A stretch of DNA of 37,323 nucleotides from positions 1-37,323 of the forward strand of contig JAUNFY010000021.1 of assembly GCA_030524805.1 (NCBI GenBank). Reading direction: 5' to 3'. This stretch comes from Bacteroidales bacterium (lineage in GTDB: Bacteria; Bacteroidota; Bacteroidia; Bacteroidales; Muribaculaceae). Every line of letters begins with the position of its first letter. Position 1 is the first letter of the stretch. Below, piece after piece: positions 8,239-16,867 of this stretch. The notes under the pieces are model-generated. The model was not told where the DNA came from, did no database searches, and worked only from the letters and a program-made list of their open reading frames with translations. The translations under genes and the position numbers were made by a program.

Positions 8239-8655
8239 CTAATTCTGCAAAGCCATTGCTTCTGCTATATTGTTCATGTCAAGACACTGCCGCCGGGAAG
8301 GATGATCCGAATTATCCGGTTCGTCATATCCGGCAGGCGTCAATATGAGCAATCTGCCGTCGCAGCATAGTTCAAAATCATGGTGTGCCGGTTTTTCTTT
8401 TTCCGCATACGCCTTGTGCCTAAGCAAAATAATCTTGCCACCGGCCGCCTCGACCTCCTGTCTCACCATCTTCTCCCGGGGAGAGATAAAAGCCGACACC
8501 ACCACCCCTCCGTTGCATGCAAAATAGAGAGCGTCACGGAGTTTTTCTGCAAATTGCTCATCAGTATCGGCACGATGCACTATTAAGCGGGTACTTGAAC
8601 GGATTTCTGAGATGGAAAAGATTGCCGTATGCCATAAATTCCCTTCCGCATGCAA
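8239..8655 (-). pseudogene. C-terminal DprA/SMF-like part of RAYT-1, out of frame
   Basis: This open frame continues the homology of the second RAYT (15677-16648) after a one-base shift near 8581-8586. The homologous part starts at LIVHRAD (about 8584) and runs to the stop at 8239: about 115 residues containing NGGVVVSAFISPREK, AGGKIILLRHKAYAEKEKP and CCDGRLLILTP. The first ~24 codons of the frame (8655-8585) are only the shadow of the other frame. The open frame is intact and clearly diverged from its paralogue at many codons without stops. The shift is therefore recent, programmed, or a sequencing error. The region resembles the Rossmann-like DprA/SMF fold; its function is unknown. Confidence 0.65.
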
Positions 8656-9181
8656 TCACGCCTCTCCGCCGCCGAAAAAAAGCCGGACGGAATTTTCTGA
8701 CTGCCAGGCGATATGGATTCTGACGGATGTATTGAAATATTGTGTTGAGGTCATGTTCGGGCAGCACAATCCTGTCGTGATAATTACTGCGGAATACTAC
8801 AAGATCGGGATTTTGATTTTTTTGTCTCCACTCATCGACGACGGCCGCCTTTAGAATTCCGATATAATATCCGAGATGGCGTGCAAGCCTTTGCCTCACG
8901 TGAATGAGCATGTGGATGTGGTCGGGCATAATCGCATACTGATAGACTTTTATCTCTTTTTGCTGAAACAGCCGGATCTGCCGCCATATCACCTGCCCGA
9001 GCGGCAAATTGCGCAAGGTCACTCCTTCTTTCGACAGGTCTTTGACCACCAATTCGGAGAAAGGGACACACCCATCTGCTTTTGCGATAGTGATATGATA
9101 CTTCCATGGAGCCTGATAGTCGTGGCCCTGTTTGCGGGGGCCGACGGAAGGCCCTGAAGCTCGCTTGCCTGCTTCTTTCAT
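8561..9181 (-). CDS. REP-associated tyrosine transposase, copy 1 (RAYT-1)
   Basis: This 206-residue Y1-type HUH nuclease belongs to the IS200/IS605-related RAYT family, which acts on REP palindromes. The HUH pair is H88/H90 in MPDHIHMLIHV. The catalytic tyrosine is most likely Y151 in QYIRQNPYRLAVRK. The N-terminal KQGHDYQAPWKYHIT is shared with the paralogue at 15677-16648. The full RAYT domain is present. Homology runs to FKYPL and the frame then ends in an unrelated NSASCRY tail because of one extra base, which cuts off the C-terminal extension. A REP-like inverted-repeat element lies immediately upstream (9212-9422). It is divergent from frdCAB. Confidence 0.85.
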   Translation of the reverse strand: MKEAGKRASGPSVGPRKQGHDYQAPWKYHITIAKADGCVPFSELVVKDLSKEGVTLRNLPLGQVIWRQIRLFQQKEIKVYQYAIMPDHIHMLIHVRQRLARHLGYYIGILKAAVVDEWRQKNQNPDLVVFRSNYHDRIVLPEHDLNTIFQYIRQNPYRLAVRKFRPAFFRRRRGVIACGREFMAYGNLFHLRNPFKYPLNSASCRY

Positions 9182-9211: not shown

Positions 9212-9422
9212 GAGCCGGAGGCTCATATACTTCCTCAAAAAGGCCGGCGCGCAAGGGCTGACAATAGCCGCGCGCAAGCTGCCGGGACCGAGCGCAGGGG
9301 CTGCCTGAAGCCGGGGAGATAGCCGAGATTGCCGCGCGCAAGGGGCGCCGAGGGGAGGCGCGATGGCGCGGAAGGGGCGGGGCGCGCAGCCTTTTTGAGG
9401 AAGTTGCAGAGCCCGTGGCTCT
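9212..9422. repeat. REPIN-like element: two inverted REP-type palindromes
   Basis: The left arm has the hairpin GAGCC-GGA-GGCTC (9212-9224) followed by ATATAC and CTTCCTCAAAAAGGC (9230-9244). The right arm, inverted, has GCCTTTTTGAGGAAG (9389-9403), then TTGC and the hairpin AGAGCC-CGT-GGCTCT (9408-9422). A hairpin plus a conserved flank, in two opposed copies beside a RAYT gene, is the architecture of a REPIN. GCGCGCAAG occurs three times in the spacer (from 9246, 9270 and 9333). Confidence 0.7.
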
Positions 9423-15676: not shown

Positions 15677-16648
15677 TCAGAGCTTTGCTCCTGCTATCGA
15701 CGAGGCGAGCGAATTCATAGCGAGACATTGCGTTCTGGAGGGATGATCTGATTTTGGGATGGACTGATATTCCATGGGCAATATCATCAGCAGGCGCCCT
15801 TCGCAGCAAAGATCGAAATCATGCTTCGCCGGTTTTTCCTTTTCGGCCAACGGCCGACCATGAATAAGGATGATGCGGCCACCGGCTTGCTCTATAGCCT
15901 TCCTTATCTCTTTTTCTCTCCGGGAGATGAAGGCCGACACTATTACGCCACCATTGAGAGCATGATACAGGCATTCTTCCAGTTTGCCCCTGAAAGACCG
16001 CTCATCATCGGCGCGATGCACGATGAGCGGATATTTGAATGGGTTGCGGAGATGGAAAAGATTGCCGTAGGCCTGAACCTCGCGCCCGCCGGCAAGGATG
16101 TTCCTGTGCTTGCGGAAGAAAGCCGGCCGAGCCCTCCTGACAGCGAGCCGATAGGGATTTTGCCGGATATAGCTGCATATCACGTCCAGGCTCATGAAAG
16201 AATATATAATTCTATCATTGTAGCCTTCCTCAAAAACTGACAATGCCGGATTCTGATTTAATTCACGCCAGATATTTGAGATGCCTGTCATAAGACCGCC
16301 AATGGCATTTCCAATAGGCCTGTCCAGTCTTTCCTTTACTTGAATAAGCATGTGGCAATGATCCGGCATAACAATATATTCGATAACCCGGATCGACCTG
16401 TGATGGCTGCTGAAATTTCTGATTTCATTCTCTATAATCGCGCCAAGAGGAGATAACTCCACCCTGACTCCATCCGGAATCAATTCCAATACTTTCAAAG
16501 ATGAAAAATAAGGAGCGGAAGCAGCTTTGGTGATAGTGATGTGATATTTCCACGGAGCCTTGTAGTCATGGCCGCGCTTTCGGCGCTTATGGTGCCTGCG
16601 GAAATTTTGCTGATCCGGATATATTTGCTTTCTACTATCACTATTCAT
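15677..16648 (-). CDS. RAYT-2: Y1 HUH transposase fused to a DprA/SMF-like domain
   Basis: This intact 323-residue protein has two parts. Residues 1-205 are a REP-associated tyrosine transposase: HUH pair H97/H99 in MPDHCHMLIQV, likely nucleophile Y160 in SYIRQNPYRLAVRR. Residues 209-323 are an extension not found in ordinary RAYTs: NGGVIVSAFISRREKEI, then AGGRIILIHGRPLAEKEKP, EGRLLMILP and SRTQCLAMNSLA. This order resembles the DprA/SMF fold (SG-A...AGG-T-AVL-G, LLSE-P, RNR-IAGLS), which binds single-stranded DNA in DprA. The fold assignment is inference from pattern. The enzyme would nick and join REP palindromes in trans. Palindromes GGGCGGAAGCCC lie just upstream. It is paralogous to RAYT-1. 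Confidence 0.85.
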   Translation of the reverse strand: MNSDSRKQIYPDQQNFRRHHKRRKRGHDYKAPWKYHITITKAASAPYFSSLKVLELIPDGVRVELSPLGAIIENEIRNFSSHHRSIRVIEYIVMPDHCHMLIQVKERLDRPIGNAIGGLMTGISNIWRELNQNPALSVFEEGYNDRIIYSFMSLDVICSYIRQNPYRLAVRRARPAFFRKHRNILAGGREVQAYGNLFHLRNPFKYPLIVHRADDERSFRGKLEECLYHALNGGVIVSAFISRREKEIRKAIEQAGGRIILIHGRPLAEKEKPAKHDFDLCCEGRLLMILPMEYQSIPKSDHPSRTQCLAMNSLASSIAGAKL

Positions 16649-16706
16649 GCTTCTTTTCTTATTTTTGGCCCTCTTGCAGATTTCTGGCCTTCTGGCGGAT
16701 TTTTGC

Positions 16707-16833
16707 GGGCTTCCGCCCTCACACCCCCTCCACTGACTGCGACGGCCCAGGCTTCCGCCCGCAGCGGGAGCTGTGTGCGGGCGGAAGCCCGAAAAGCCGG
16801 GGGGCGGAAAGGCGCAGGCGAGGGCGGAAGCCC
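16707..16833. repeat. REP-like palindrome cluster between mfd and RAYT-2
   Basis: GGGCTTCCGCCC (16707-16718), GGCTTCCGCCCGC (16750-16762), and the reverse complement GGGCGGAAGCCC at 16779-16790 and 16822-16833 form a set of inverted and direct copies. The last two are followed by GAAAA, and the first is preceded by TTTTTGC, the mirror image. Opposed copies can fold into hairpins. Position beside a RAYT gene suggests REP/REPIN units; it may also terminate mfd transcripts. Confidence 0.7.
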
Positions 16834-16867
16834 GAAAAAAGCCCGGAGGGAGGGGCGGAGGGCTGCG

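Follow-up and report, generated by a model that had tools for sequence, protein, structure and literature searches.

A REP-associated HUH/Y1 nuclease joined to a truncated DprA-like domain in Bacteroidales

The window analysed here is a stretch of 37,323 nucleotides from a Bacteroidales bacterium of the Muribaculaceae (GenBank assembly GCA_030524805.1, contig JAUNFY010000021.1, positions 1 to 37,323). It carries an intact gene whose product joins an HUH/Y1 nuclease of the REP-associated tyrosine transposase (RAYT) type to a truncated DprA-like domain (Table 1), REP standing for repetitive extragenic palindrome. Taken as a whole, the protein is probably best explained as a RAYT that has captured the front part of DprA, which would serve as a clamp for single-stranded DNA (ssDNA) on REP strands.

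The HUH and Y1 catalytic residues of the window protein are found on a TnpA fold, as in RAYTs. The first-pass annotation, made from the sequence alone, had named H97, H99 and Y160 together with four motifs of the C-terminal extension, and all of them were found in the open reading frame (ORF) in the order quoted. It had placed the extension at residues 205–323; these residues do belong to the DprA-like part, but the structural alignment puts the true start near residue 178, and the conserved GN motif at 195–196 lies inside this part, N-terminal of residue 205. The profile NF047646 (REP_Tyr_transpos) matches the window protein with 32.9 bits (E 5e-8), which is under its curated equivalog cut-off of 80 bits, and all 35 fused members at E <= 1, the best at 3.9e-14. 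PF01797 gives 21.4 bits (E 3e-4), under its cut-off of 23. Compared with RAYT/TnpA-REP proteins, the window protein has an additional DprA-like C-terminal domain of about 145 residues.

Table 1. Positions of the fusion gene, its two domains and associated features in the window
Feature	Position	Strand	Remarks
Intact RAYT-DprA fusion gene	15677..16648	-	ORF, 323 aa, ATG start
HUH/Y1 nuclease core (H97, H99, Y160)	16145..16567	-	about residues 28-168
Truncated DprA-like domain	15686..16117	-	about residues 178-321
Three REP-like hairpin repeats, GGGCGGAAGCCCG core	16706..16834	one -, two +	within 190 bp upstream of start codon
Second fusion copy, broken	8239..9181	-	frame slip near DprA-like domain start; 56-57% identical
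Inverted repeat pair upstream of broken second copy	9212-9244 and 9389-9421		

That the C-terminal domain is of DprA identity is nearly certain. An AlphaFold model of the window protein (mean pLDDT 80.7, pTM 0.56) was compared with known structures by VIA-align, and the best 50 matches were considered. Residues 178–321 align with the Rossmann fold of DprA structures, and the GN, GSR-like arginine, VS and N motifs of DprA/Smf (PF02481, TIGR00732) follow in order, the GSR motif reading HR in the window protein. Among the matches listed, which mostly concern the HUH half, the chains aligned mainly to the C-terminal part are all of DprA type; the best of them is ShosA, named a DprA-like antitoxin in the PDB, and it differs from the best DprA by about 2 in Z. 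By sequence, the C-terminal part is joined to the DprA family via free-standing relatives, which score 22.5–25.7 bits against PF02481 (gathering score 29.6). The structural match and this family link together bear out the earlier proposal that the extension resembles DprA/SMF. Chance resemblance was rejected, as column-shuffled, reversed and HUH-half controls all scored lower; PdxJ and other weak Pfam matches were rejected as well, each touching one or two of the 35 members, with PdxJ absent among the 50 structural matches listed.

Several search results weigh against the DprA assignment. PF02481 is matched by none of the 35 fused domains, its gathering score not being reached, and Pfam, NCBIfam and PADLOC return for the C-terminal part no more than stray weak matches in one or two members and no single-sequence DprA match. 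The direct profile match to DprA in the PDB is weak (E 0.04 for H. pylori and 0.3 for S. pneumoniae), and the unrelated PdxJ (E 0.23) ranks between the two. Single-sequence searches of the PDB gave no match with the window protein and three unrelated chains with one free-standing protein.

Conservation was examined in 55 aligned full-length fusions, which are the best-scoring fetched loci and not a random sample. Left out were L005/L006 (the broken window copy), L008 (an incomplete ORF), L009 (split in two), L019 (match ending at query residue 234), L058 (a fragment) and the duplicates L041, L042, L064 and L070. H97, H99, Y160, G195, E245, P273, G284, L287 and N312 are kept in 55/55 fusions and C281 in 51/55, and conservation of the DprA-like half equals or exceeds that of the nuclease half. 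Roughly the final third of the DprA fold is missing, as might be expected of a degenerate structural tail without activity of its own, kept for folding or dimerisation of the nuclease; this degree of conservation, together with basic residues at the K246, K272 and R305 columns in 53, 54 and 49 of the 55, makes such a tail highly improbable.

The fusion is not confined to one gene, a restriction that the first-pass annotation had named as a ground for refutation, and is present in many genomes and several families of one order. A whole-protein search gave matches in 76 of 198 family genomes (E 1e-5 or better; some partial). In the searches of the order and the phylum with a C-terminal profile, up to 10 candidates per genome were scored, so that the counts are lower bounds. 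At least 23 of 393 genomes of the order matched, comprising, by reading of the match table, 17 full-length fusions, one fragment and five free-standing proteins, and the fusions span eight family labels. The order is Bacteroidales, since the named relatives are metagenome-assembled genomes of Muribaculaceae, Porphyromonadaceae and other Bacteroidales. At least 4 of 395 genomes in the phylum sample matched: the host genome itself, two with free-standing proteins and one with a 675-aa frame. No fusion was seen outside the order in this sample, and a scan of viral contigs found no relative. In the tree, the C-terminal parts group together as one clade, separate from DprA-like proteins that are free-standing or full-length (99/97; the bootstrap is not settled and long branches meet), and the distances of the two halves correlate (r 0.78, against at most 0.17 in 999 permutations). 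Most simply read, this is a single old fusion maintained under constraint, and the DprA-type part was probably acquired once in Bacteroidales.

According to PMC4066776 and PMC4489622, DprA depends for ssDNA binding on R115 in S. pneumoniae (R52 in H. pylori) together with a basic patch of K119, K144, K175, K202 and K225, to which H. pylori adds K137 and R143. R212 of the window protein is aligned with SpDprA R115 and HpDprA R52, and 45 of the 55 fusions have R or K there; K272 adjoins the position of SpDprA K175, and R305 lies as far from the invariant N as K202 does. The conserved charged columns are basic over acidic by five to one. Binding of ssDNA by the DprA-like domain is plausible on this comparison of positions. 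Other positions speak against it: the R212 column has S in seven of the 55 fusions and H in three; the correspondence between R305 and K202, drawn solely from the spacing to the invariant N, is suggestive only; SpDprA K119 and K144 have no basic counterpart by offset; R143, the third H. pylori residue, corresponds to M311; and SpDprA K225 falls beyond the domain end, so that the ssDNA positions of DprA are kept only in part. At a pTM of 0.56, moreover, the mutual placement of the two domains is not fixed by the model.

The aligned range stops at SpDprA residue 218, whereas the RecA contacts of SpDprA (E235, M238, D243 and E265) and its dimer residues (249–275), as given in PMC4066776, lie further on; the RecA-binding and dimer surfaces are therefore missing. 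Besides being fused behind a nuclease, the window domain differs from DprA/Smf in this respect. RecA loading, which the first-pass annotation had named as a function of DprA, is thus unlikely for the extension, and we rejected it as the default reading. Because the basic ssDNA side is partly kept and the RecA and dimer part is missing, the domain is better viewed as an ssDNA-holding module than as a RecA loader, and a role as an ssDNA clamp for the nuclease has, in our estimate, an even chance of being correct.

A different role would be that of a protein-docking module, which would bind host DprA, RecA, SSB or a replication protein and bring the nuclease to lagging-strand or incoming ssDNA, with no DNA binding of its own. 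The host owns a separate canonical dprA, and the strongly kept E245, N312 and C281 do not figure among the DNA-binding residues listed above for DprA. PMC6006769 sorts Y1 proteins into 12 subclasses and describes extra domains such as the DnaA C-terminal domain in RAYT relatives. Set against these points, the RecA contacts and dimer residues lie past the aligned end and the conserved charge is predominantly basic, and we regard docking as rather unlikely.

By anatomy, the locus is a REPtron, and an association of the fusion with REPs is likely. The gene is flanked by REPs dispersed through the genome: the core GGGCGGAAGCCCG has 16 exact copies there and none in the reversed control. A GTGTGA foot precedes the hairpin in 11/16 core copies and, among the three repeats at the window gene, only in the - copy; the published REP-foot tag is the tetranucleotide GTAG (PMC3733652), which this foot does not match, but PMC6006769 lists atypical structures for some subclasses. 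A wider pattern, GTGTGAGGGC-(2-6)-GCCCGAA, has 59 occurrences spread over 7 of 198 family genomes, 30 of them in this genome; all 7 also have a protein match, and the reversed control gave 0 in each genome shown. Among 49 REP sites with listed positions, 7 are no more than 200 bp away from a fused gene, where 0.09 would be expected (Poisson P 1e-11); they come from five of the seven genomes and flank the gene on both sides in two cases. A strict inverted-repeat score was reached upstream in 8/53 loci, downstream in 4/55, in a control stretch in 1/49 and in shuffles in 0/53, and some diverged fusion copies have inverted repeats of their own. Three observations count against the association: the wider pattern is absent from 69 of the 76 family genomes that match the protein; of the seven genomes with the pattern, two carry a matched gene that is not intact (truncated in G118, broken in G022); and strong upstream inverted-repeat pairs are limited to those 8 loci. 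Two GTGTGA REP subtypes, AGTCAGAGGAAGCA- and TTTTTTGAAGGA-prefixed, stand in tandem about 40–55 bp apart at several loci of L088–L099 and in the own genome.

The host genome has six diverged copies, one of them broken, and copies other than the window gene are at most 59% identical to it; the absence of near-identical genomic copies distinguishes it from IS200/IS605 TnpA (IS608, ISDra2). A link between DprA and ISDra2 was dropped, as neither ISDra2 nor transposition comes up in PMC7314969. In two further Y1 genes of the host, the frames of only 176 and 179 codons leave no room for this extension.

With ShosA as the best structural match and free-standing relatives of the domain matching PsyrA, the domain might stem from the defence branch of the PsyrTA and ShosTA systems, and the RAYT would then be part of an anti-phage or toxin–antitoxin device. 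This is very unlikely: at E <= 0.1 PADLOC assigns the fused protein to none of its defence families, and it gives a single stray match for the C-terminal part among 35 members (E 0.034), ShosA and the best DprA are close in Z, the window gene is located among REP repeats, and six diverged copies with one broken suit RAYT dynamics.

Free-standing DprA-like (PsyrA-like) proteins of about 156 aa were observed 20–420 bases downstream of a HATPase_c_4 gene on the same strand at all four loci examined (L059, L060, L061 and L062); the HATPase_c_4 match is below the Pfam cut-off in L062, and winged-helix matches occur in two of the four. The two genes possibly form an unnamed operon. DprA-like frames of 333–412 aa are scattered in the order (L080–L083, L085 and L086), and L086, the one scanned, matches PADLOC PsyrA with E 1.6e-78. 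A 675-aa frame (L102:106-2130) appears by eye to hold two tandem DprA-like domains.

We propose that a REP-associated HUH/Y1 endonuclease gained a DprA-type Rossmann domain shortened to roughly its front two thirds, which would retain some of the basic ssDNA side and be without the RecA-binding and dimer-forming part of DprA. The HUH core would recognise the folded single-stranded REP and may cut it at the GTGTGA foot, much as GTAG serves as the cutting site of known RAYTs; the DprA-like domain would clamp ssDNA beside the hairpin and so could hold REP strands for cutting and joining. Going further, one may imagine an autonomous ssDNA machine, a single polypeptide that cuts hairpin-marked strands and holds them via its captured DprA module, so that REPs would be spread or repaired without host RecA or DprA. 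This extension is speculative and unlikely, although it would explain the persistence of the gene.

In the literature searched for RAYT, Y1 transposase, TnpAREP or SLOG transposase fusions with DprA, which covered few subscription papers, no description of a RAYT–DprA fusion was found, and the word DprA is absent from the main text of PMC6006769. RAYTs and DprA are themselves already known; the RAYT with a captured DprA module is what appears to be new here. It accounts for a C-terminal region that is conserved yet goes unrecognised by Pfam, NCBIfam and PADLOC, exemplifies a DprA module without the RecA surface, and offers R212, K272 and R305 as candidates for point mutation. As a conserved fusion, it ties REP processing to the ssDNA-handling proteins of transformation and recombination, and bears on the capture of ssDNA by RAYTs and on the reasons for which hosts retain these proteins.
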